The notes below the pieces were generated by a model. That model saw only the letters and a program-made list of their open reading frames with translations. It ran no database searches and was not told the origin of the DNA. Shown one piece after another: positions 1,883 to 30,977 of a stretch of 30,977 bases of DNA. How positions within the stretch are numbered: the first letter of the stretch is position 1; every line of letters starts with the position of its first letter. Source of the DNA: Lobulomyces angularis. Taxonomy: Eukaryota; Chytridiomycota; Chytridiomycetes; Lobulomycetales; Lobulomycetaceae. The translations under genes were made by a program, and so were the position numbers. The stretch lies in the NCBI GenBank assembly GCA_027604685.1, contig JADHYX010000258.1, positions 1 to 30,977 on the forward strand. The letters are read 5' to 3'.

Positions 1883-1950
1883 TAAAGTTGCTTCAGATAT
1901 ATAATATATTATACCAACTTACTGTTACACAAAAACTCAAAAATATTATA

Positions 1951-1981
1951 GTGCTTGGGCATTATTTTTTTGAACATTAAT
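1951..1981 (+). repeat. Left terminal inverted repeat, 31 bp
   Basis: It begins GTGCTTGGGC and ends GAACATTAAT. It matches the reverse complement of 3922-3952 at all 31 positions, including a 7-T run. TA precedes it at 1949-1950. Confidence 0.95.
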
Positions 1982-2006
1982 TTTTTAGTGACCAAAAATT
2001 AATGTT
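1973..2006. repeat. Subterminal palindrome (13-bp stem, 8-base loop)
   Basis: AACATTAATTTTT at 1973-1985 is the exact reverse complement of 1994-2006, separated by the loop TAGTGACC. The left arm overlaps the inner end of the left repeat. The motif AACATTAAT therefore occurs at both element ends and once more inverted inside the left end. It could be a transposase-binding site or a chance AT-rich hairpin. No matching palindrome is seen at the right end. Confidence 0.6.
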
Positions 2007-2096
2007 ATATAAAGAATTTAAAAAATTTAAAAAATTTAAAAATGTAAAAACATTCAACAAATAAAACTAATTTTATTTAGTAAAGTTTTCAAAGGA

Positions 2097-3839
2097 GATG
2101 AAACCCATTTGAAAAATATTGAAACATTGATTTTTAATATTAATAGATTAACTGTACATACTACTCATTTTGTTTAGTGGTATATACTCAATTCCAATCA
2201 CACCAACAAACATATTTTAACTGAAAAAGATTTCCAAGTAATTTTTTCTTTACTAAACAACCACACCATCAATAATAGGAATAAAGAAGAAAGAATGACT
2301 GTCATACTTCGATTTTTACCTTATATTCTCAAATATAAAAAAATAATATCATACGGTAATCAAGAAATAAAAAATGTTCAACAAATAGCTATATATGCTT
2401 CAAAATGTTTTTTACAAATCACCTAGTTAATGTTCAAGAGCGTTTTATTCAAAAAGTTAAAAATTTACTTCTACAATGATAATAAAAAAATTGAAATTTA
2501 AAGGAATATCTAAAGAATTTATTAAAATTTTACAAGAACGTAATAGAAAAGTACAAGATTATATTTTTGGTAAAGAAAATGTTGAAATAACACACCTGTA
2601 CGATTTGCAAATTGCAAATGAAATAAAAATTTGTTACTCACAGACATTCAGACTAATGGATTGGCTTATGATATAGTTGCACGAACAGAAAATACTTGGA
2701 ATCTTACTTCAAATTATGTGAATTATACAAAAAATTTGATTTAAAATTATTTAATTTCATTCCATTATCAACATCTTCAATTCCTAGGCATATTATTATT
2801 GACACTAAAATATTAATGGAACATATTTTAAATTTATCGATAACAAAAAGAAAACAGTGTTAAATTGTTTAAAGATACTGTATGGGAAACAGTTTTTAAA
2901 ACTAATACAAAAGCTTTTAAATCTAGAAACAATATGAGTTTTAATGGAATGGTTAGAACTGATGGTGTTTCAATTTGTGTTTTATTATCTTCACCAAAAC
3001 CTAAAAAAGAGGAAAATATACCAAGAGTTAAAAAGAGAAAAAAACCAGAAAAATCTGAGTACTTTCAAGATAACCTTGGAGATTTACATTCTAATAATGT
3101 TTATATTGATCCTAATAAAAGAGATTTGTTGTATTGTCTTGGTAGTAATGCTAAGAACTTAAGATATACTCAAATGCAACGCAGAAAGGAAAGTGGGTTA
3201 AAACGTTATCGGAAAATTCGAGAAAGAATTTCTTGTCAAGTTGCTACTAAAGAAGTTGAGAACTAGGATATAACAAAAAAAACTTTAGAAAAAACAAAAT
3301 GGAATGACTATATAAAAGATTTTTTTATCAAGTTTTACCATAATGAAGAATTTTATAGGCAATCAATTTTCAGAAAACTTAAATTAAAGACTTTTATCAA
3401 TACTCAAAAATCAGAAAGTAAATTTATAAAAAATGTAAAAAAAAATTTGGAGATGAAAAAAACACAACAATTATTATTGGGGATTGGTCAAAAACAAGCA
3501 CGAAGCACCAAGTTTCAACAAAAGGTAAAGGATTTCGAGAAATGTTTAAGAAAGCTGGTTTTGATGTATTTTTATGTAATGAATTTTTGACATCTTCAAT
3601 TTGCCCAGGATGTAAAAAAAAGATCATTAGACACATTTAAATATGGAGAATCTCCTAGACCTTGGATAAAAAAAATTGAGAAAGTACATGGGTTGTTGCA
3701 CTGCAAAAGTGAAATTTGTCAACTACTTTATGGAAAAAAGAGGTTATGGAACAGAGATGATGTTGCAACCATGAATATAAGATCGGTGGTGGAAAGTTAT
3801 GTAATAGATGGTTGTAGACCAAAATATCGTTGTAAATAA
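2097..3839 (+). pseudogene. Fanzor/TnpB-like RNA-guided nuclease, broken frame
   Basis: Pieces in two or three frames line up as one Fanzor protein. The N-terminal part (from about 2097) has LTVHTTHFV and YIL segments typical of the family. The RuvC-I Asp lies in YIDPNKRDLLY (codon 3108-3110). Further on are IIGDWSKT and a Gly-rich KGKGFREMFKKAGFDVFL segment, the RuvC-II-like Glu in NEFLTSSICPGC (3581-3583), a zinc ribbon with CPGC and CKSEIC, and RuvC-III in WNRDDVATMNI (Asp 3756-3758). The frame ends at TAA 3837-3839. Breaks are TAG codons at 2175, 2424 and 3264, shifts near 2470 and between 2660 and 2865, and single-base shifts in A-runs at about 3437-3445 and 3613-3620. All catalytic and zinc residues survive. 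Related proteins cut DNA guided by an RNA copied from the element's 3' end. I could not find a clear start codon. Confidence 0.88.
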
Positions 3840-3952
3840 TGTAAATAGTTTTTTTCAACATAGTTTTCACTATGTTTATATTTAAATATATGTTGGTGTT
3901 TGTTGTGTTATTTTTTTGGATATTAATGTTCAAAAAAATAATGCCCAAGCAC
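3840..3952 (+). ncRNA. Candidate Fanzor guide RNA (fRNA) region
   Basis: The 113 bp between the Fanzor stop and the element end contain a clean hairpin, AACATAGT (3857-3864) pairing with ACTATGTT (3869-3876) around a TTTC loop. An AT palindrome (about 3878-3889) and the right terminal repeat follow. In known Fanzor and TnpB loci the guide RNA scaffold is transcribed from this position and the guide is the flanking DNA just outside the right end. Here that flank begins TAGTGAAGGTTGACTC at 3953. The role is inferred from position; nothing in the sequence proves transcription. Confidence 0.35.
3922..3952 (-). repeat. Right terminal inverted repeat, 31 bp
   Basis: Exact reverse complement of 1951-1981. 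TA follows at 3953-3954, matching the TA before the left repeat. Confidence 0.95.
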
Positions 3953-3954
3953 TA

Positions 3955-5121
3955 GTGAAGGTTGACTCCCAATTATAGTCAGTTGAAAGAATAATTAGGT
4001 TAAAAGGATTAATTAAGTTAAATTTTACGAAACTATACCAATTATAAAACTGAAAAGATAATGAGTTTAATTGTTTTGATGTTGGTTGTAAAAAATATTG
4101 TTTTGTTAAAAACTTTGCACTTTCAACAATAGGTTTATGTTAAATTTTATTTTAATGGGACAACCGCAAGGAAACACAAAGAATCTACACGAAGGACAAC
4201 AAAGGCTGACTACAATTAAACAAAGGATACAAAGGAATTCTTGTATGATCTGTAACTTGCAATACTTAATAACACAGCACAAATTCAATTTTTCCATAGT
4301 TATAATATTATTTTTAAGTGTTTTGCAGTTTCATAATCAATAAAACATCAGCTCTTATAGCTGCCTGTCCATGTTTGACCGGTTTTAACAAATCCTTTTT
4401 TTGTTGCCTTGATGCTCTAGAAGACGCTGGCTACTCACACTGCTTTAAACCAATACCGATTGGAAGTCTTAATTTTTAATTGAATTAAATTTCTGTTTTT
4501 TATTCCTTTTTGTTATTTTCTTTATTTCTTTTCTGTATTATTTTTTTATTTATGAGTAACAGCAATTTGGTAATCATGGATAAATAAAAATGAAAATTGC
4601 AAGCATTAACCACAGCAGCTCAACAAAAGACCAACTTATTTTAAACAAAAAGAGAACATAAACAAACCAGAAAAAAAGATTTAACATTAAATACATTGAT
4701 TTTTGCATAACACAATTAGAAAGTTTAGCATTACTTAAACTAAAAAATAAAGAATTGTAAATATTATATTATATAACAAGAAATTTTTAAAATTTTTTTT
4801 TATGTGAATAACAAATAAAATCAAACTGCTAAAATTAAATTCCAAAAAATGATTTGCCATCAATTGAAGCTTTCAATTTTGTAGTTAGTGGAAAATGGAA
4901 CTTTTTACCTCTTTTTACTCTTCTTACACACTTAACAAATTTTAATTGTATTATATAATTAAAATGATTAATATTTTCTATTTATTTACTGTTTTTAGTT
5001 TGAAGACAGTGAATACATTGAAGTTTAAGCTTAATTACCAAACTTTTCTTCTATCAAATTATACCATTAAACATATTTACTTATTTTCATTACAATTCTA
5101 CTGAAAAAAAATATACAAGTT
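3955..5121. other. Intergenic, no supported gene
   Basis: About 1.2 kb of AT-rich DNA between the transposon and the 3' end of the kinase gene. Short open frames near 4106-4343 on both strands lack recognisable domains. A patch at about 4345-4470 is less AT-rich than its surroundings. On the minus strand it reads as broken peptide-like fragments, possibly an old gene or transposon relic. I find no tRNA. Confidence 0.4.
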
Positions 5122-15380: not shown

Positions 15381-15918
15381 ATACTACTTTTTTTTTTTTA
15401 ATATTATTACAATAAATTTTTATTTTTTTTTATATTATATTTAGAATATTTTAATTTCAATTTTAATTTTATAAATTAAATTTTAAAGAAAAAAGTTTAA
15501 GTTCTAAAAAAAAGTTTATTCTTTATTTGATGCTTTCTTTAAAATTTGTAATTTTTGAAGAAAAAATAAATGATTTACTTCAAATCCTTTACCTTTGAAT
15601 GTTCTATTATTCCATTAAAGCATTTTAGAAATTATTTATTTTTAAAAGGAATTAAAGTTACATCATAGTTAAATCAGGAATATAATTTTTTATTCTCCGT
15701 TATTGTAATTCTAAAATTAATTTTTTTTTTTTTATTAATTTTTTGTAAATGCTAATTTGTACCAAAATATCGTGGTTTTTAAGTTAATAAAAAAAAAAAA
15801 ATGAAGAATAATAGTCGACAATATGGCATTGATTAATTATCTTATTTAAAACTTGAAAAAAAAAGAAAAAAAAATTTTTTATTGTAGCTAATTCTAAAAT
15901 CTAATATCTATTTACTTT
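15381..15918. other. Convergent 3' flanks, very AT-rich
   Basis: Lies between the converging glycosyltransferase and ABC transporter genes. It is dominated by long A- and T-runs, with no coding or RNA signal I can support. Confidence 0.45.
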
Positions 15919-18900
15919 TTAATCAGCCTGAGCGTCAGATTCAGAAATAATTTTTAAAAACACTTCTTCCAACTTAAAGTTATCAAAAATGGGAAAAGAA
16001 GTTAAAAAAAAAATTGAATTTTGAGCACTTACTGTAGTTTGAGAAATTCCGAAATCTAAAATTCCATTTTCTTCTTTACCGAACTCAATCTCTTTAAAAA
16101 GTTTCGAAATGGAACCTTTACATGCTGGAAACTCGTAACTAGAGTTGGTAGTAAATGCATCCATTTTTTTCCAACCATTTGGTAAAAGACTTTGTGTAAA
16201 TTGAGAAGCTCTTTCTGTATCTTCTGCCTTACTGTTAAAAAATAACTTAAATCCACTTCCATACAACTCCTTGAGTCGAAGGGTATTTCCTAAACATCGC
16301 AAAGATCCCTTAGCCATAATCCCTATCCTTTGACATAATGCTTCTGCTTCTTCCATGGAATGTGTTGTAAGTATAACAGTCTTTCCTTCTCGGGCTCCAT
16401 TTATGATATTCCAGATCAAGCGGCGCACTTCAGGATCAAGGCCGGTCTAAAGAAAGGTTACGTAAGGGTAAAGTAGTAGAAGCAACTTACTGTTGGTTCA
16501 TCTAAAAAGACTACTGAAGGAGAGCCTACAAGGGATATTGCAATGCTCAATCTTCTTTTTTCACCACCAGATAACCCTTTAGTTAAGCGATCTTTGAATG
16601 GAACTAGAGAAACTTGTTCCAGGCACTTCATTACTGCATCCTTTTCTTTAGAAATCTCCACCCCTTTTAATCTAGCATAAAAATAAAGATGTTCTCCTAC
16701 GGTTAAATCGTCCCATAAGATATCAAACTAGCAAATGAAGTTAACATTATTAATATCTATGTTACCTGTGGACAAATACCAATTTTTTGATAAACTAGAT
16801 CTGTTTCCGTTTTTATATCAAACCCTGCCAATATTGCCTCACCAGAAGTTTGCTGGTATAGTCCAGTCAACATACTTATCAAAGTGGTTTTTCCGGCTAA
16901 AAAAAATAAAATAAAATATTTTTTGAATAAAAAAATAAACCTCCGTTAGGACCAAGTAAACCAAAGATAACTCCTTCATCAACAGCAAGTGTAACGTTTT
17001 TCACTGCGACTTTTGGACCCATTCCACCTCTAGAAGCATATACTTTTCTCATATTTTTCATTATTAAAGGGCAATTTGTGGTAATATCTCCTTTTAAAAC
17101 TCTTGCCCTTTCATCTTTCACATCTTGATCCTCAAAATTCAATTCCGACTCATTTAGGATCGCACCTTTTTCCAAATTGGCAGTCTTTCTTGTTCTGGAT
17201 CGGGATCTGCCAGTCAAATACTGAAAAGGAAAGTACCAAGGTTTTTGAACTATAATATTCTTGTAATTAATATAACATGAAAATTATTAAGTAATTTACC
17301 TCCAAACTCCGAAGGTAGTACGGAAGAAAGATACAACGAAGCAAGGAAGAAAAAAACGGATTCAACACTCAAATAAATCAAAATAGTAAAAACTTCATTT
17401 CCTGGAACAATTCTACTTAGATTGTATGGAGTACGGCTACTTACATAAGCATCTTCATTCATGACTCCTAACGCACGGCTAGATTGTTCAATTTATATAA
17501 TATAAATTTGTTTAAACAAGAGTAATCTTTGTATCTTTCTTACTAAAATGCAAAAGGTGGCCTAACGTAGAAAAATGATTTCAATTTATTTAATTAAAAA
17601 ATAAAGAATAAATACCACAGATAATAGGCAGTAGGAATGGTTTTTCCATTGAATAATCTTTCCGTAGTAAGTGAAATAATTACTCCACATAGAATCAATA
17701 AAAACACTGAGACTAATGCAAATCTGGATCGGTTGTACATGCTAAAACAATTAACTACAAGGTAAACATGATCTCTTACCTGGAGAAAAAGAACACTAAA
17801 GAGTTTTGTGCATGACCCCATACAAAAAATACCAGCAACAGCACTAAAATAGAAGGATAAGTATTTTGAGACTAATCATAAAAAAGCACCAGTTGGTTCG
17901 GTTCTGGTAAATAACTCGATATCAAAAAAATAACCGGAACTGATAAAAATTACAGATGAAATGATGAACAGAAAATAAAATGTTATATAATGTGTTAAGT
18001 AGTAAGTCCACAATCTCAAACTGCGTTAATTTTTAAGAAGCTAGTTAGAAAATATATATATATATATATATTTTTTTTTAATTAAACCCGTTCATTTTCA
18101 TCATCACTAAAATTTTTTCTTCTTTTTCTTTAACAAGAGTTACAACGAATATCGGTAAAAGGAAGCTTACTCCAAAGGGAAAAAGAATTCTTCCAATTAA
18201 GGCAGCAACAGGAAACTGCAGTTTTGTTGAGGATCTGGTAATAATTAATACTGAAAAGAAATGTATATTCAAACCTTTCTGGAAAAACTCTAAATCCCTG
18301 AGTTATAGTGGCTTTTGTTAAATTTGATGAAAAATTACTAAAGCGTAAAAATGAGTTATCCAACTGCGTTTGTTCGATAAGTTGTCTTAAACCCATTGAT
18401 GGGAAGCCTGAGCTTGCATCAATTCTAGAGTCATGTCCATATTGTAAAGTCAATTTGTATTTTTTGGCAACATGATCAATTTTGTCAAAATGAATTGCTA
18501 TAAGACGAAAATTCACAATAATTTGATTGAAAGGGCAGAATAGTTATACCTCCGTAAGGCATTTTGTTCATAACTTTGTTTACTTTGGCAAAAAAGTTAG
18601 CAATTTCAAAATTAGTAACTTCAGTATCAAGCAGCAAACTTTTGTCAATTTTAGTAACTTCAACAACAGCCTCATTAATTTTTTTGGCTAAAATGTCATC
18701 CAAATTTTCATTTTCTTTCTGATAGAACGGCACTGGTTGAAAACCATGAATAGTAAAATTGCCAGTTTCTGCATTGACATCGACATCTAACCAGTATTTT
18801 GTAGTAAAGGTGTCAAATATTCCTAGTGATTTGTTGGCTGGATTAAATTGATTTGCGCTAATAGACAATAATTTATTAATTGGTACAAGAGGAAGTTGAG

Positions 18901-19734
18901 GTCTTTCACCGATGTCAGCACTCAAAACTTCAGGGGAATGGCTATATAACGACCACGGCCTTAAAAAAGTTAAGTTTTGAATAAATTGATAGATAATTAC
19001 CTAGTTTGTAGCTGATTAAATGCTCTTGCTAGATCAGTACTATTTGACATTTGCAGTGTCTGAAACCATCCAAACTTTGGTTGTGCAGTGTAAGTTGAAT
19101 CTAAGAGAAAAGTTATTTTTTTTTTTTATATCAATAAATAGGATTTTTATAAAAAAGAAACCTTGATCTGCGAATGACGAAAGTAACCGAGGCTTTCTTT
19201 CGTAAATTGAGGAATGTGGATAGTTTTCCCCAAACCAAAATACACTTTATTAAATTAATATAAAAATCGTTACAATTATTCAACTAAACTTGATTTAAGT
19301 AAATACCATGGATGTCTGAAATTAAATCCCGCTGCACCTGGTGGTGTAGTACTAGTTACATCAACCACTATATAAAAAAAAAAGTTTACAGCCTTTCTCA
19401 CTATCCCAGTTTTTTCATCAAAAATTTTAGGAATTTTAGCGTCATAAGTTAAGTTTCTAAGGTAAAAATTTGTTTCTGGATTCATAGCATCTTGGTTCGA
19501 ACAAGAAATGACTTCATGAACTGAAATTGTGCTTTGAATTAAACCAGATACCCACGTACCTAGCAAAGATGATATCATAATCTGAATAAATTTATATATT
19601 ATTAACGTTGTAAATTAGGTAAAATTTACCATAAAAAGTGGACAAAGGGAAATGCAAAAGATATTAGAGAACCATTGTCGCTTTTGAAATGATAAAGCTT
19701 TCCTAGAAAGTGCTCGAAACTGGTTTGACCTCAT
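15919..19734 (-). CDS. Half-size ABCA-family ABC transporter
   Basis: The gene starts at ATG 19734 (MRSNQFRALSRKALSFQKRQ) and ends at TAA 15921-15919, with a dozen or more short introns. The N-terminal membrane helix is followed by a large luminal loop containing CSNQDAMNPETNF, as in other ABCA proteins. Several helices come next (AALIGRILFPFGVSFLLPIFV; FYFLFIISSVIFI; FALVSVFLLILCGVIISL; LIYLSVESVFFFLASLYL), with the PPFAF motif near 17570. The nucleotide-binding domain has Walker A GPNGAGKTT split by the intron 16897-16940, Q-loop CPQFDILWDDLT, signature LSGGEKRR (about 16550-16575), Walker B VVFLDEPT, TGLDPEVRR and H-loop THSMEEAE. The protein ends GISQTTLEEVFLKII plus an acidic tail. Only one membrane domain and one ATPase domain are present, so it must dimerise. 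ABCA proteins usually move lipids. One exon around 19380-19400 remains ambiguous. Confidence 0.93.
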
Positions 19735-21077: not shown

Positions 21078-24000
21078 ATGGATTTGAAATTGGTTAGCTT
21101 AACTTTAACCCGAATTGGTGAAAAGGTAGTTTACTCATACCAAGTTGTTTAAAAAATTTTTTTATTTAAATCCTACCAGCTCCCGGCTAATTCTGGTTTG
21201 CCTTGTTTTGTTTTGGAAAATGATGCGTTATTTGTGCAAAATGTTACATCAATTGTTAACTTGGCTCCATATCGGATTAATCATGTTCTAAACTCCTTAA
21301 CCACTTTATTAGATTCGTTTTCTAAGGTAATTTTTTATCAGCTTGCATTTTATTCATTTAAATAATTTTTTAAGGGTAAACAGTCATCTTTTAGTCAAAA
21401 AGATGTGAATAGCTCCTCTCCAGGAGTTTTTAATCTGGACGACAATTCAATATCAATTGAAATTTTACAATCACAACTATTTGTTTTAAGGCTGATGGGA
21501 TTTTGTTTGGCAATTTATTGGAGAAGTTTTCGGGACAAGTCTAATAAAAAGTATCTTACATCTAATTTTAAATTATTTTATTGATTACCTAAACAGAGCA
21601 GAAAGGATAGAAAAGAGTAAATTGAGCTTTTTAACACAACCTTTTGTAGGGTCAGCAGATTTCACTGCAGACCAGTCATTAAGTGAATTTCCGGATCCAC
21701 CACCATTGGATGAGCACCTTAGTAAAAACGTTATTGCATCAATTACAAAATATTTTCACACAACAGTATCTACGATGAATGCAGATTTTGTAACACACTC
21801 CTTTTCTTCATTTTCAACTGGAAATTATTCAGACTATATTGGAGCCATTCCAATTAGTAATATTTGTGGACCTAATTCTTCAGTAGCTGCTAATACTACA
21901 AATTTAGCAGCCTTTTATTTAAATCCCTGCAATAAAATGGATGTGGATGATCCAAATGAAGCAGATAATTATGACGAACTTTACGAATATTTTCCTTCTA
22001 ATGTAGAAGTTTTATCACAGTTAGCAAAATCTGCTGGAAGAGTAATGTTTTTTTTAAGTTCAAGTAACTGGCCAGTTGTATTTCAAAGAATCAGATTAAA
22101 GTTATTCCATATAAGTCAGTGGTTAGCAAATGACAAAGGCGCTGACTCTGCTACACAAGTCAGCGGAGATTATGGTGATTTTACTGAATTTCGATTTATT
22201 GAATGGTGCAATTTAAATAAACTGCGTCTAGGAATGGTGTTAGCAGGTAGTTTTCTTTAAGCGTTTATTTATTATTTTAGAGTTATGCAATGTTACTCGA
22301 ACATTTCCTAAAAGAGCAATGTTTATCACTGCCATTGTTCTCAGAAGAGCAATTTGGAACTTTATTGAAACATATCCTGCTGATTTTGCCGCTTTAATTC
22401 AATCCCAAAAGCGAATGGATGGTATTATTATGCTAACTTCGACTGTTAATCGTTATTATTTTTTATTAGGAAATCCAGATATACTTTTTGAAATATTTTA
22501 CAGCTCTGCAGACTCACATAGAAAAAAAATTTTGTACTGGCCTTTACAAACTTTGTTGTTAATTTTATGCCCTGATATCCTTAGTTCCATTGGTGCTTCC
22601 CATTCCAATAATATACCACTTGTTTTAGCCGCAAACAAAAATGTTGAAATTGCAAAAAAGTTTTTTGAAAACTTGAAAAAAAGTTTTAAAATTTCAAAAT
22701 TTGTGGATATCTCAATTTTTTGTTTGGTTGAGATTTGTAAAGCTTCAACGTTTTGTCCAAAAAATGATGGTATGGCACTGCGCATGATCATACCTAATAT
22801 GGAAACTGAATTGAAGGTTAGTAGTAGCTACAATGTTATTAACTATTTTTTTCACTTAGGAGAGATTGTTTGATCAGAACAGAACTGTGAATCAAATGGA
22901 AAAAACTGATGAGAATATTTTGGATATAAAGGTTTTAAACGATGCACTTACTGCTCTCTACAGATTGAATCCATTTACAACATTAAGAACTCTTGTCCCT
23001 TTTTTATTGGAATGGTCAGCCCCTGTTGTCTTCAAGGTTCTTTTGGTAAAATGTGGTTATACCATAGTTAGCGAGGTATTTTAATCTTATAAGTATTCTT
23101 TAATTAACTTTTTCTTCAGATAAATTTTTCTTGGAATCCCGCGATGGATGCAAGCTTGGCACAACCAATTAGGCAGTTGTTTTTGGTATCCTATAAAAAA
23201 AAAATTTTTAATTTTTTGGTGAAATAGGAAAATATTACAAAAGATAACTTAACTCAAGCAAAACTGCCATCAAATGCTAACAAAAAAATATCATTTGGAA
23301 GAAAAAATGATAAAAAATCGCATATCGAGGACACATACGATCGCCTTGAAGTTATCGCAAATGTATTAAAAATATGGTGTTGCCGCCCTTTACTTGCTGT
23401 TGCGGTATTAATATTATATAATTAAATTTCATTTTAGTTTTAATTCTTTTTTTCCACTTTTTAAAAATTTAGAAAGATACCACTATCATTGGAGCTGAGG
23501 AGTTAAGATTGCTACTAGCTGGTATATCAAGTTGTTTAAGTGATCCTATCCGAACCATTCGAGAAAAAGCCTCTGAAGCAATATTGGTACCAACAAAAAA
23601 ATCAATTTTTTTGTTCTATTTAACTTTGAATGCAGAAAATCTTTGAACCTGAATTTGTAAAACGATGGGATGGAAGCATAAAGGACTGGCGTTTTGATGA
23701 TGTATCTGATATTGAAATTTCTGATTCTTCTTTGGGACAGTGCATGAAAGTTTACTGGAAAATTAGCTCTCAAGTTCTTTTATCCATTTCAAAGCAATTA
23801 ATGGAAATAAAAGGAGACCTACTGGACCCTCAGGCACTTTCACCTTTTTTTGCTAAGCCATTGATGTTATTAGTTGTATGAAAAAATAAATAAAATAAAA
23901 ATTGCATATAATTTTTTTATATTTACAGGTGGAGTTATTAAAAAAAAGAAATGAATTTTTGAGATCCCGTATTGCTTCTTTCAAAGGTGTGGGAACTATT

Positions 24001-27000
24001 GCAGCTGCTCTTGGCATTGTATCATACATTCCTGAGAGGTTAATTGAGACAAACATTATTTTTTTAAAAAAGTTATCAGATTTGGTGCTTCAGTTTCCCT
24101 TGAAATGGCTTTACTAATATTCATTTGTTGCTCTGACCTTGAGATATCAAATACTGCGACATATTGTTTAGGTTGCTTTTGTGAATTTTATTAAACTAAT
24201 GTTATTAGGTTTAATGATGGATGAAGCTGAGTTGACAGGGGAAGCTAAATCCTCAGAAAGCAATCTTGCGGAGTTGAACACTAATCAAGAATTTGGCGGA
24301 AATGATGCAGATTCTTCTAAAAGAACAGGTTCAATATCTTCTGGAACCCCTGCGATGAGCACTGTTGCCGAAAATAGCTCCGTTTACCAAGAATTGAGGA
24401 AATTGAGCCAAGGGACAAATATTACTATATCTGGAGGACAAAAGGCTCAGCAAAAACGCATAAGGAAAATTTTAAGGTCAGTGAACAAAGCCACTGCTGG
24501 TAATATGGGTGCCTGGGAAGAAGTTTACAAACGCTGGAAAACTTTAAGTGTAATTCATAATACGCAAATGGCGTATTCTGGAAATAATGGGAATGACGAA
24601 GATCTGGATGCTACAAAAAGAAAAAAAGGATTTTTAAGCTATGGAAATATTAAGTCTCAATCTGAATTTGTGGAAGATAAAGGTGACTGGCAAAATTATA
24701 CAGGATTTCTAGCTGCACTTGGTGGAGTTTGTTTGAATGTACCAGCCTCGCAAAATCCGAACTCCTCCCTTACGACCTCACCAACGCTATCCACCTCCAA
24801 TTTGTCACCTTCTGTCCCACTTATCAGAAAGAGTTCAATGTCGAGCAACTTGACCAATACTGCACCTTCAAGGCGTCAATCTGCATTAAATAATTTACAA
24901 GATGCATCAAGTCCCTCTACTCCAAATTACTTAAATGGGGATTATTCCAACTGGAAAGGTTCAGCGGTAGGCAGTCAACTGATGGGGTATGTAAAAAGAA
25001 GATTTTAATTAAATTTTTGTTCTTTTCAAGGGCGTTTGCAAATTCGAATGAAAAAGTTGATACATTTTTAGCAGAGATGGTGGAATTAAGCATAGGGGAA
25101 AACGTGGTAGTTAGGGAAGCTGTTAAGGACCTATTAGGCAATGAGCTAAATAGCGGACTTTACGGTTCGTAAAAATCTAAAGTAATCAAAATATTGACTT
25201 TTTTAAAGGAATTTTGTTTAAGCACATCTCTAACCTTGTCGATAGGTTTTTTGTTACTGAGGGAGAAACGTTTAGTCACGAGAAAAATACGTTATTTGTT
25301 GAAAATTGTATATCTATTTTGAAGTTAATTTTGGAAAGAGCAGAAGAACTTTCGCCAGACCACTTATTTAAAGTAGATTTTGGTGGACTAATTTTAAGCT
25401 TTATCCAATACGTCAATCAGTTAGGAAAATTTAACCAAACCGTAACTGCTTTGCGCATAAAGGTAAAAATGTGTCAACTGGTGGAGGTCTTGGTTGGTAA
25501 AAAAGATACTGTTGGGTTGAGGCAAGAAATTAGATTAAGAAATAGATTGGTAGAAATTTTTTTGAGCTGGAATAGCGAGTTTAGTTTGGTAACATTTGCG
25601 GTTTTTTTCTTATTATGTAATTTTTTTTTTTTAGAATGAGGTATTAGATGTGAAGAATTTCAAATTGTACAGGGACTTAGATCTTGCCTGTATTAAGGTT
25701 ATGATACCGTTATTATCGGAGTTACCTTTGCAGCCGAGTAATGTAGAAAATTTGAAAGGAGAAAGTGGACCTTCCTCAGCACTGTCGAGTTTATTAGTTT
25801 TAGACCAAGATTTTGATAGCACTCCAGAAAAAGGGATTTTATTTAATAAGTATTTATCATTTTTTCTTAAAGTGCTACAGAAATGTAAAATGTCTGAGGT
25901 ATATACATAATTGAATTTCTTAATTTTGTTTACTGTTTCTTTCAAAGTCACATCAAATCCGAAATATTAATAATGAAAGAACTGAAAAAATTGCAGACAC
26001 TGTACAATATTATAGTTTATTAAAAAAACTATCTATTTTGGCTCTGTCTAATATGTTATCAGCAAACATTGAAATTGGCTTGAAATATTCTTTATCAATG
26101 GGTTATCATGAAGACTCAAAAACTAGAGCAGCATTTATGCAAGTTATGACTAATATCTTGAATCTAGGGTCATCAGAGCAATTCGCAAGGCTGGGAGAAG
26201 AGGGACTAGTTATTTTAGAACGCTATGAAAAGCTGTTGGATTTAATAATGGAGCAGGATTTAACTCTTGCTTTAGCTCTCTGCGAAGCAGCACCTGTTAC
26301 AGATATTGATGGAATTGCTCAAATGTTTTTAAAAGTATTTGAAGCGAAAGGAAAAAGTTTTAAGTTGCTTAAGGTTGTGGTTGAGAGTGAAGTTAATCAC
26401 ACCGATTCTCCGGCTAATCTTTTTAGAAGGAATAGTATGGCTACAAGACTGCTGACAAACTATGCTAAAGCAGAAGGAGCTGAATACCTGTTAGCAACTT
26501 TGAAACCACTAATGGAGGATTTAATTGATAGAAAATCCGACATTTCATTTGAAATGGACCCGACACGAATGGTATGAAAACTTAAGCTCGTACATTTTGA
26601 TTTTTTCTTGTAGGGTCCAAATGACGTTGCTGAAAATAATTTGAATAATTTAAAGTTGATTAGTCAAGGATTTTTAGATGCGATAATAGGAAACGTTTCA
26701 AACGTTCCCTTTAAAATTAGAGAAGTGTGCTCTTACATTTCGTATATAGTTGCTCAACGATTTCCTGATGCAAGGTAAAGTGCTTGTAAGGGGATTACTT
26801 AACTTTTTTTTAGAGTTGCTGCGGTTGGCGGTTTTATTTTTTTGCGATTTTTTTGTCCCGCTTTAGTAGCTCCAGAAACTACGGGACTTATTGGTAGTCA
26901 ATATGTGGTTTCCAAGGAACTCAGAAGAGGTATTGTATTACAAGTATAATTTTTTTTTTGATTCTTTTTTACTACAGGTCTCATATTAATAACGAAAGTG

Positions 27001-30000
27001 ATTCAAAATTTAGCAAATAATGTTTTATTTGGTATCAAAGAAAGTTTTATGGCTGGATTAAATGACGTGCTGCGTGAAAATATTGTACGAGTTCATAGTT
27101 ATTTGAGAGAAGTTTCGGTATGTGTTTACTTTGATTTCCAACAATTTAATTTGCTCCGTTTAGACAATTCCTAGCGATCATCTACAATTTCGTAGCCCAC
27201 CAGTCAACAATAAAATAGAAGAAGTGGAATTTATGAGATTACACCGGTATTTAACCCTTAATCTTGATAAAATGGAAAGGATTTTAGTAGGAGGGTCAAA
27301 GATTGAATCAGATGATCAAAAAAATGTTTTGCCGAGAAAAAAACTTTTTGCACAACTTTCCACATTACTTGCTAGGTTAGGATCACCTCCTGATTTACAA
27401 AAAATTGAAAGCAGTTTACAATCAAAAAGTATTGCGAGCGACAGTAGCACAAAAGGAATTATTTCTGCTTTGACAACTGGCAATTCCAAAAGTCAGTTTT
27501 ATACTGATTTTCTTACAAAAGTTGAAAATCGAAGTGGCTATATGAAATATGTGGGGAATCTGAGAAATCGAAAGGTTTTTTTTGAGGAAGGAGTTTCTAA
27601 GGTTTAAAAATTCATAAATTATAACTAGATAATAAAAATATTATATAGGAACGAAGACCAGTGCTCTATTACATTTGTCGAAGAGTCTTGCCTGGTTCAC
27701 TCGATATCGATATTTTTGTTTATTTTTTCATAATATCTTTGAAATCAGTGGCAAATAAGCCTTTCGATTTAGTAGTTGACTGCACTCAATTTTCTGGCGT
27801 AAACGGATGGGGTGATGACATTTTAAATCTTATGGAAAAAATTTTTCCTTTAAACTTTGAACAGAACTTGCAATGTCTCTATTTTTATAATGTTAATTCC
27901 GCTTTTAGAAAGTATTCCAAAAAACTTGCAAAATTTTTGAAAGATCAACGGAAAATCTTTCTGAATAATTTACAAGAATTTACAGAATTTATTGGGGAGG
28001 TGAATCTTCCAAAATCGACTCTATCTTTAGAAAGAGACGCTACTGCGGTGTCTCCTGTAACTAGGTTATTTAATTACAGAGACCATATTCCAGTCATATT
28101 TAAGATTTCAAATGAAATAGTCCAAGTCGTCACTTTAAAACCATCTGACATTTTAGGAACTCAGGCAATACTGAATGACATTTGGCACTTGAGTGAAATA
28201 GAAGACGCTTCGATTTCTACACGGAGTAGCAATGACAATGAGTTTGTTGTAAGATATGTGGAAAAAATTTCCTCCTATAAGCTCACATCCAGTAGTAATA
28301 CATCAGTTTCTACAGCAATTTTTTCGTCACCTAAACGCGACTTAATAATTCAAATGTTAAAAGCTGCTAAACTTCGTTTTCAGTCCTCGAGACAACAAAA
28401 TTTTTTAGCTGATCGCCGCCATCTATCTCCTTCTGATGTTCCAGGTACAGATAATATTATCAGTGTGATTTAAAGTTTTAGGTACCTTGTTAAACATGGC
28501 GATGCTTAACCTTGGCAGTAATGATGCGAATTTAAGAGTTGCCTCCTACAACCTTTTAGTGGGATTAAGTTCCAGTTTTAATTTTGAATTAGCGAACAAG
28601 CTTTTGATAACAAAGGGTATGAAAGTTGTAGAATATCTTGAAAATTAATTTTCATTTTTTAGGTTTATGCATTCCTGCAAACAATCAGCATTTTGTTGTA
28701 TATATAAGCAAAGGATTAGCTGTTACTTCACAGCATTTAACCTTAGAGTTTTTAATTGAATGCTGCATAGGATTTATGAAGTCTAGTAAAGAATTAAAAC
28801 ACTATTGTCTTGAATATATGGCCCCTTGGCTTCCAAACTTATCAAATTATTGCCGCTCAGGAATGTTGCTAAATTCTCCTACCAATGATGTACAGCAACA
28901 GAAATTAAAGGAGGTTATCAGATTATTGATAGAGATTACAATTAAAGAAACTGAGGTAGATTTTTGTTATATATCTTTAGCATTAAAACTTAATTTTTAC
29001 ATAGATGTATCCGTTAATACAGTCCAATATTTGGCAGTCGCTGGGGGAGATAGAGGAGATTGTTCCTTTGGTACTGGAATTGTTTATTCAGAGTGCAGTC
29101 GAAGGAGGAGTTGGTTCATCTACTGCAGAAGTTGCTGCTAATACTGTCATTACATTGGCTTCAGTTAATCTACATCACATCCCTGGAAAAATCATATCGC
29201 GGTTAAGAAGAATTATTTCTAGCACATCTCAGCACCCAACTGCATCCTTAGTAGATCATCCGGCGATGGGAGAAATTGCAGTTTTATTAAGATTTATTTT
29301 AATGCTTTCTTTTAACAACAACTTGAATGTTACTCAATTTTTGCCAGAATTATGGCATATTGGTAATGTTATTTTATTTACCTTAGTTTTTAATGTCATT
29401 TTAGTTTCGATTTTGATTGGTGTTGGATCACCATTGATTCGCAGCTCGATTCATGTAATTGTTGTAAATATTGTTCATTCTTTATGCACTAGAGACTTAA
29501 GTGAGATGCATTTAAATACGCTAAAAGTTTTGCTGACGAGTTTATCGGAACCAAAGATGTGTTTACTTTTTGGGACTTCAGTTGGTGGAGACACTAGTGA
29601 AGTTTTTTTGCTCAATTCAGATTCTGTGTCCAAAATAAACCAACGCGAAATACCATTATCAAGTGTTGAAATGGTTTTAAATTGTTTATTGGATGTGATA
29701 TCGTTCGGAACTTCAGACCCAGGTTTGAAAAATATTATATTTTCAATTTAGGTGATGTATTTTTAGAAATATCGGCTATTTGGAAATCCAGATGGATGTC
29801 TCTTATTGCAAGTACTGCATTTCAATACAATCCTGCCATCCAGCCTAGAGCATTCATGGCTCTCGGGTGTTTGGCACAAAATGATGTCGACAATGACTTA
29901 CTTTATCAGGTTCTTGTAGCCTTAAGAGGAGCCCTTACTTTATTTGAAGACAATGATTGTGGTCTTATAGTTTCAATAGTAATGTCGCTGTGTAACATAG

Positions 30001-30977
30001 TAGGGGGATTGACACTTGATTCTATTTTTCTGAAGCCCATGTTTTGGTTGGCTTTTTCTCTGGTTCAAATTGGTCATGTCCCTATTTTTCACGCATCTCT
30101 GTCATTACTTCAAGTTGTAATAAAAAGGTTGGATGAACTTGGTGCTTTTCAGGATGAAGGTGTTTCCAACTTGTTGATGAAAATAAGGAGCCCCTTTACC
30201 GAAATCTTGGGCCAATTGGACTCAACTGTTGGAATTCATTTTCAAACTGACGTATCATTCGCTATTTCAATTAACTTAATGAAAGGCTTAAGACATAAAA
30301 CTACAAAATCTGTTACGAACGATGTGTTAACATTGTTGCTTGAATTATCTGGAAAGCATTGTGGTTCACTCAAAGTGGGACTTGACAGATTGGGATATAT
30401 TATTCCTTTATTACCATCATCTGATAAAATTAAGAATTTATTTTGGTTTGCTGGTATTCACGACTCGGAAGCCGATATTTATTTAATGAATGGTAATAAT
30501 AATACGACCTGGAATCGACATAAGCGGTTGTTGGAGTGCATTGCTGATGATGTAACCATTTCAACTTTGACTATTTGCACTATGGCAACAATGTTGGAAT
30601 ATTCTGAAAATGAATCAGAGATGATTTTTATTTATGGATTTTTGGCAGAAGCAGCACAAATTATTCCTGATGCATTTATTTTAATGTAAAATGATTGTTT
30701 TTATTTATTTTTTTATTAATATTTTATAGATCGGAGTCTATACTCCCGCGTATGTCTCAAGTGGTGACTAATAATCAAAATTCACAGATTTTGGATTCTA
30801 TACAATCAATTTTAAAAACAGTTGTTTCTTTAACTCCAGAAAGTATTCCAAGTGCAGGCTCTAGAACTTCTGTGACATCTGTAAATAGATCTAATTCAAA
30901 ACCAAACGATTTACATAACCAGAACCTGAATCAAGGTAAAGATTATGTTACATATTATATTAAAAAAAAAAAAAAAA
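21078..30977 (+). CDS. NF1: Neurofibromin (Ras GTPase-activating protein), 3'-truncated
   Basis: A single large gene from ATG 21078 (MDLKLVSLTLTRIGEK) that runs off the window. The first exons are 21078-21125, 21180-21326, 21375-21550, 21597-22246 and 22281 onward, joined in frame; the last complete exon ends at about 30935 with a GTAAAG donor. The N-terminal helical part matches neurofibromin in pattern (RRAIWNFIETYPADF, WPLQTLLLILCPDILSSI). The RasGAP domain spans about 26040-27115, the Sec14-like lipid-binding domain about 27540-28010, and the PH-like part about 28070-28400. HEAT-like helices follow to a Ser/Asn-rich C-terminal stretch. The encoded part is close in size to whole neurofibromins, so only the end is missing. 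Neurofibromin turns Ras off by stimulating GTP hydrolysis; yeast IRA1/IRA2 are relatives. A low-complexity Ser-rich insert at 24740-24960 is not typical of the core. Confidence 0.95.
26040..27115 (+). other. RasGAP domain of the neurofibromin gene
   Basis: The arginine-finger segment reads NLFRRNSMATRLLTNYAKAE, with the finger Arg at codon 26425-26427. The FLR motif (FIFLRFFCPALVAPE) has its FLR codons at 26839-26847. The closing helices include LITKVIQNLANNVLFG. Short introns interrupt it at about 26577, 26775, 26930 and 27120. Both catalytic Arg positions are kept, so the domain should be active on Ras-GTP. Confidence 0.93.
27540..28400 (+). other. Sec14-like and PH-like module of neurofibromin
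   Basis: After the exon ending near 27602, the next exon begins RPVLYYICRRVLPGSLDIDI and continues with KPFDLVVDCTQFSGVNGWGD and LQCLYFYNVNSAFRKYSKKL, the CRAL-TRIO pattern of neurofibromin. Next is a PH-like stretch (VTRLFNYRDHIPVIFKISNE, VVTLKPSDIL). In human neurofibromin this bipartite module binds glycerophospholipid. It helps separate this gene from other RasGAP families. Confidence 0.85.

Follow-up and report, generated by a model that had tools for sequence, protein, structure and literature searches.

Transposons that carry a Fanzor gene have been known since 2013, when SPu-1 of Spizellomyces punctatus, which has the same anatomy as the element examined here, was described together with PUl-4 and PUl-1, in which Fanzor occurs alone or with a Mariner transposase between common ends, according to the portions of that report on these elements (Bao and Jurka 2013, PMC3627910). 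The sections of Saito et al. 2023 on SPu-1 and SpuFz1 (PMC10432273) give the transposon-associated motif (TAM) of SpuFz1 as CATA, record a fixed CA on the left of SPu-1, list D383, N385, E541, and D606 as the metal-binding residues of SpuFz1, and describe (section 7) an omega-RNA that spans the stop codon to the repeat plus 14-15 nt of flank. In those sections, no transposase flanked by SPu-1 ends was found and help in trans was only suggested; a TnpB-like role for Fanzor is suggested in the discussion. The guide-RNA scaffold of Fanzor1 is reported to include the repeats and target duplications in the part of Yoon et al. 2023 (PMC10711439) on scaffolds. The family described below bears on the role of Fanzors for the elements that carry them.

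The window analyzed here, meaning the whole stretch of 30,977 nucleotides, is one entire contig of the Lobulomyces angularis genome (Chytridiomycota, order Lobulomycetales; 20.76 Mb in 533 contigs). The initial annotation, made from the sequence alone, had assigned it to an early-diverging fungal-type genome, and this assignment was right. It had also described an element with perfect 31-bp inverted ends, a TA duplication, and no transposase, and each of these features was recovered. The element lies at positions 1951-3952, and its arms, extended to 1949-1981 and 3922-3954, are 33 nt long and 100% complementary, that is, TA plus the perfect 31-bp repeat. A 24-base end motif occurred twice in the window at up to 3 mismatches, compared to 0.00 occurrences expected from 100 shuffles. 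Within 1951-3952, no transposase match was found among the open frames or with a transposase protein search, which implies that the element can only be a non-autonomous member of the Tc1/mariner (IS630) group. The features are listed below.

Features of the Fanzor1 element in the window (coordinates are those of the window)
Feature	Position	Strand	Basis
TA target-site duplication, left	1949-1950	.	114 of the 122 distinct ends in fetched loci follow a TA
TATA, predicted transposon-associated motif (YATA) adjoining the left end	1947-1950	+	role suggested by the SpuFz1 TAM CATA (PMC10432273, sections on SpuFz1)
Left terminal inverted repeat, 31 bp	1951-1981	+	arms 100% complementary; end-motif match
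Broken Fanzor1 gene; catalytic D, E, D and zinc-ribbon cysteines kept	2040-3839	+	frame pieces, homology
Predicted omega-RNA-like hairpin, right end; inverted repeat and TA form the 3' arm	3894-3954	+	fold z-scores
Right terminal inverted repeat, 31 bp	3922-3952	-	arms 100% complementary; end-motif match
TA target-site duplication, right	3953-3954	.	arms 100% complementary including TA
Predicted guide, the 15 nt of host DNA that follow the right TA	3955-3969	+	analogy with the S. punctatus omega-RNA (PMC10432273, section 7)

Several other frames were seen in the window. An open frame on the opposite strand (1733-1918, minus) could, by eye, start about 70 bp from the left end of the element, so the element may occupy the upstream region of a host gene. 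Farther along are exons of an ABCA-like transporter at about 15900-19000 (minus; the R1_ABCA1 match is weak and sub-threshold) and exons of a neurofibromin-like RasGAP at 21500-30700 (plus; RasGAP E 1.6e-11), the relatives of which are named neurofibromin 1.

The gene inside the element had been read as a Fanzor nuclease with RuvC and zinc-ribbon landmarks. The landmarks are indeed present: the catalytic residues are D at 3108-3110 (IDPN), E at 3581-3583 (CNEF), and D at 3756-3758 (WNRD), and the zinc-ribbon cysteines are encoded at 3602-3613 (CPGC) and 3702-3719 (C....C). However, the gene is decayed rather than intact. Compared to its relatives, it has two in-frame TAG stops (2175-2177 and 3264-3266) and about seven frame changes, with the pieces counted by eye. 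The Pfam zinc-ribbon profile PF07282 fell below its cut-off for the only one of five window pieces that it matched (E 0.023, 15.3 versus 26.3 bits), and it did the same for two relatives, a piece from locus L012 and the protein P0025, which makes this profile a poor test for the clade. The assignment of the window gene to Fanzor1 is therefore based on relatives with longer open frames, and the Fanzor homology that the initial annotation had proposed to check was clear. The L012 piece (629-1624, a 332-aa open piece of the same family) matched SpuFz1 (8gkh) with E 5.8e-53, Parasitella Fanzor1 (9cf0) with 2.3e-36, and Guillardia Fanzor1 (9cer) with 1.6e-6. P0025, a whole protein of 612 aa, aligned with residues 9-604 of SpuFz1 8gkh (E 2.5e-76), and the window pieces, joined with X at the breaks, matched P0025 with E 2.9e-177 (51% over 98% of the query). 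Among the best 120 of 161 matches to the joined pieces were two Clydaea vesicula proteins, P0026 (78% over 49% of the query) and P0031 (76% over 29%). In the L012-piece alignment, SpuFz1 D383/N385, E541, and D606 fall on conserved residues, all of which are kept in the window pieces. On this homology, the window gene clearly belongs to Fanzor1, a family of RNA-guided DNA nucleases, as a broken member.

Other copies, which the initial annotation had suggested looking for, are abundant in the genome. The DNA of the element gave at least 89 matches (a lower bound, with 40 of 126 candidates scored) and the Fanzor protein query gave at least 139, while the end motif gave 150 (78 + 72) versus 0 for a backwards control and a shorter end motif gave 168 versus 3. 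In the fetched loci, TA precedes 114 of the 122 distinct ends, although the search pattern contained no TA, and the 20-nt flanks of the ends are at most 75% alike within each group. The initial annotation had also reckoned with repeats shared only with unrelated DNA; they are instead common to Fanzor copies and transposase elements. The Fanzor genes form at least two subfamilies, A, which is that of the window, and a diverged B. A 534-bp element, L033, has the right-end hairpin with no Fanzor piece found in it and resembles the ghost elements of S. punctatus, which are Fanzor-less sisters.

The intact copies that had been hoped for were not among the fetched loci. In these, neither Fanzor nor transposase had an open frame of full length; the longest stop-free pieces are 332 and 200 aa, respectively, and some Fanzor and transposase pieces extend off contig ends. 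The closest near-full copy is 90% identical to the window element. Among the 100 of 150 end matches listed, less 6 dropped for missing contig size, a contig end lay within 1 kb of 53 of the 94 usable ends on the element side versus 2 on the outer side. This implies that the assembly breaks inside copies, so that young, near-identical copies may be missing from it.

Some composite or additional units were observed as well. In L012 (506-2803, C216), a TA-flanked unit is bounded by two right-type ends. It carries the C-half of a subfamily A Fanzor and, on the opposite strand, a subfamily B piece, an arrangement that could result from the fusion of two elements whose ends still enclose the whole. 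Other open frames lie in or near units with the same ends (L029 301-1342, L039 2750-3451, L032 478-1329, and L030 708-1181). By eye, those of L029 and L039 are alike and that of L032 has a retro-protease-like stretch; a Pfam scan gave no match for these three and only weak, sub-threshold matches for that of L030. Two other TnpB-like genes scored above the PF07282 cut-off, L049 3767-4195 (C78) and L053 3006-3461 (C107), with no end motif found near either. L049 is nearest to TnpB-like L79 (9b0l, E 7e-17) and is thus Fanzor2-like.

Two loci, L043 (1,443 bp between TAs) and L030 (2,509 bp), hold a DDE transposase bounded by nearly window-type ends, and no Fanzor piece was found in either. Their end shares 29 of 29 bases with the right Fanzor end of L012 and the left one of L065; compared to the window end, 2 of 29 bases differ. 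A search with the transposase protein gave 33 genome matches. For the L030/L043 transposase, HTH_23 was above its cut-off (1.6e-7) and pieces of DDE_3 were just below (1.6e-6 and 6.7e-5), while NCBIfam IS630 was sub-cut-off for the L043 piece (E 3.4e-11). The whole relative P0146 was above the cut-offs of HTH_23, DDE_3, and IS630 (2.6e-30); a PDB search with it gave no useful match. The D, D, E triad could be aligned. The transposase is therefore like the IS630/Tc1-mariner group in its HTH and DDE_3 domains, D-D-E order, and TA target, but unlike Tc1 in that 44 residues separate the second D from E in 6 of 6 relatives measured, where the usual Tc1 spacing is 34. Both copies are broken, L030 by a stop and a frame change and L043 by frame changes. 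Further transposase elements have diverged ends (L052, L064, L067, L073, and L075, and L059, L066, and L070). By its ends and domains, the IS630/Tc1-mariner-type transposase is a good candidate for the mover of the Fanzor elements. The initial annotation had supposed a transposase encoded elsewhere, and a same-end candidate is now in hand; that it moves the Fanzor elements is what we infer.

Transposase and Fanzor pieces also occur side by side. In L070 (1421-2188) and L075 (1362-3236), Fanzor pieces lie directly behind a transposase-type end and a transposase N-terminal piece and share their strand, as might be left by deletions within one element that once carried both genes. Fanzor/transposase neighbors were also seen in L056, L057, L058, L063, and L065. 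Since several of these cases may be nested or adjacent insertions, we do not conclude that there was an ancestral element with both transposase and Fanzor. Separately, L030 1683-2852 (C280) aligned with P0145, a gene model from Clydaea vesicula, and the aligned blocks match at 93% (238 columns, including a gap), 97%, and 100%. Such closeness is high for another genus and possibly reflects horizontal transfer or a contaminating contig.

Empty sites were sought by joining the host flanks of 20 elements across a single TA and searching the genome with the result. L032 is a non-Fanzor element that has the same ends and lies in repeated DNA. Its joined flanks matched across the junction at each of the first 14 places listed, at best with 97% over 102 nt, and the empty sites on C390, C114, C59, C203, and C319 had equal lengths in query and genome. 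This shows that the element inserted at TA and duplicated these 2 bp. The empty TA sites that the initial annotation had pointed to were therefore found for this non-Fanzor member of the same end family but not for the window copy, for which the genome search returned its own flanks only. The other Fanzor copies among the 20 elements also returned only their own flanks, save for the junction of L013, which gave a 76% match over 81 nt in T-rich DNA that did not permit a reading (C187, E 8.6e-7).

We set the hypothesis of a CA on the left beforehand, based on the SpuFz1 TAM and the fixed CA of SPu-1. All 19 A-type left flanks read CATA or TATA (CA 15, TA 4; the window copy itself has TA), compared to 9 of 62 right flanks read outward (CA 3, TA 6). 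For CA alone, the difference between A-type left ends (15/19) and right ends (3/62) gave a Fisher p of 3.3e-10, and against A-type right ends only, which were picked by a loose sequence match, it was 1/30 (p 3.5e-8). The left ends of subfamilies B/C lack this preference for CA and favor AT (10/21, p 2e-4), a motif noticed in the data afterwards and not preset; a strict set, which leaves out five ends without a tied Fanzor piece (the L077 group and L093), gave 7/16 (p 0.0019). Ends with a mutated TA were dropped from these counts, namely, 4 of 23 A-left (CA, CA, TA, GC), 3 of 24 B/C-left (TA, AT, AT), and 1 of 63 right (TA). The one-sided YATA left flank fits the CATA TAM of SpuFz1.

The opposite end of the element has the potential to fold. 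The last 76 nt of the right ends had a mean fold z of -4.60 (n=55; 53 below -2), versus -0.70 for left ends (n=46; 7 below -2). A first fold run had given -4.69 and -0.75, with 0.49 for 8 ends of non-Fanzor elements. In the alignment of 63 right ends, 88.3% of hairpin cells are paired versus 50-55% when slid. As evidence of covariation, this pairing was rejected because shuffles reached 88.3% paired equally often (382/500), and we claim no covariation. The covariation test itself was not above shuffles (2 pairs with double changes versus 2.8 expected), since the arms change too little. RNAalifold returned no pairs for the 63 right ends, and an Rfam scan of the window returned 0 families at the gathering threshold. 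The right end is predicted to be able to fold into an omega-RNA-like hairpin, which would fit the reported Fanzor1 scaffolds.

Taken together, the window holds a decayed copy of a non-autonomous, TA-inserting Fanzor1 transposon, and we think it likely that this transposon belongs to a two-part system, with an IS630-type transposase for movement and Fanzor-driven retention. In this model, an IS630/Tc1-mariner-type DDE transposase from separate elements with the same ends would cut out end-bounded DNA and paste it into TA, with Fanzor carried as cargo. The right end, with its inverted-repeat hairpin, would give rise to a guide RNA that continues into the flank, so that it would match the element's own site next to the left YATA. 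Once the transposase has excised the element, the vacated site would be cut by Fanzor and then repaired from a sister or homologous copy, which would bring the element back. Bacterial TnpB works in this way, cutting the emptied site so that repair restores the element, and a TnpB-like role for Fanzor is consistent with the motif on one side, the hairpin on the other, and the ends shared with the transposase elements. A broader proposal, to which we give somewhat less than an even chance, is that this genome could be a natural record of Fanzor as the retention (homing) nuclease of a cut-and-paste transposon. Copies would then survive at sites with a TAM on the left, the Fanzor subfamilies would have diverged in their TAM (YATA for A and an ATTA-like motif for B/C), and the separate same-end elements would supply the transposase.

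Fanzor could instead be a passenger that contributes neither to spread nor to retention, with the CATA/TATA flank due to a target preference of the transposase or to a CA borne by the element, an account that we consider doubtful. What speaks most against a bias made by Fanzor alone is the flank count at nine transposase-side ends, some of them without a Fanzor seen (CA 4, TA 2, AA 2, GT 1). These lean the same way, so part of the bias could stem from the transposase. In several groups, both flanks are rich in T at position -4, which implies that the transposase has some target preference, and the flank search yielded no readable empty site of an A-type Fanzor element in which a prior CA could have been seen. 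However, the bias is confined to one side (19/19 versus 9/62) although both ends carry the same repeat. The preference of B/C for AT, in the strict set as well, implies that CA is no constant component of the end, and SpuFz1 itself requires CATA (PMC10432273, sections on SpuFz1).

It seems quite improbable to us that a different enzyme moves the Fanzor elements and that the IS630-type ends came to be shared through old recombination or capture. The end subfamilies do differ, several transposase elements carry diverged ends, the exact window end was not found on any transposase copy, and nested insertion may explain several of the places where Fanzor and transposase pieces adjoin; against this stand the complete identity of the L030/L043 end with some Fanzor ends, the common TA target, and the number of transposase matches in the genome. 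We also regard it as unlikely that the family is an old relic of dead Fanzors and dead transposases in which copies only decay, as would agree with the lack of a full-length open frame in the fetched loci and with the 90% identity of the near-full copy closest to the window. The contig ends inside copies speak against such a relic, as they are expected if near-identical younger copies were left unassembled.

One small fungal genome holds an SPu-1-like family, IS630-type transposases with matching ends, and a one-sided flank that fits the TAM, and so permits a direct test of Fanzor retention. As far as we found within the open-licence PMC literature, the new aspects are the chytrid host, the transposase elements that match an SPu-1-like family, and the subfamily-specific flanks; in that literature, from which most subscription journals are missing, we found no paper that treats Fanzor and IS630 together. 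The kind of element itself is already known from SPu-1 and PUl-4/PUl-1. Going by the portions of the SPu-1 and SpuFz1 reports cited above, the L. angularis family shares with SPu-1 a length of about 2 kb, inverted ends of about 30-33 bp, a TA duplication, Fanzor1 as the sole gene, an omega-RNA region (here predicted) between the stop codon and the right end, a CA on the left in subfamily A, and Fanzor-less sister elements such as L033. It differs in that the host belongs to a different order of chytrids, the observed copies are broken, and transposase elements with nearly the same ends are present. Like the insect ascovirus Fanzor1, in the passages of Yoon et al. 2023 on it (PMC10711439), the window element is non-autonomous, carries Fanzor1 only, and has its inverted repeat and target duplication in the predicted guide-RNA scaffold; unlike here, the host there is viral, the transposon family is unknown, and the RNA was sequenced rather than predicted. 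With PUl-1 and PUl-4, as described in the portions of Bao and Jurka 2013 on them (PMC3627910), it shares the TA target and the combination of a Fanzor-only element with Mariner-type transposase elements that have the same ends. PUl-1 carries both genes in one element, whereas no Fanzor piece was found in the clear transposase elements of L. angularis, L030 and L043.
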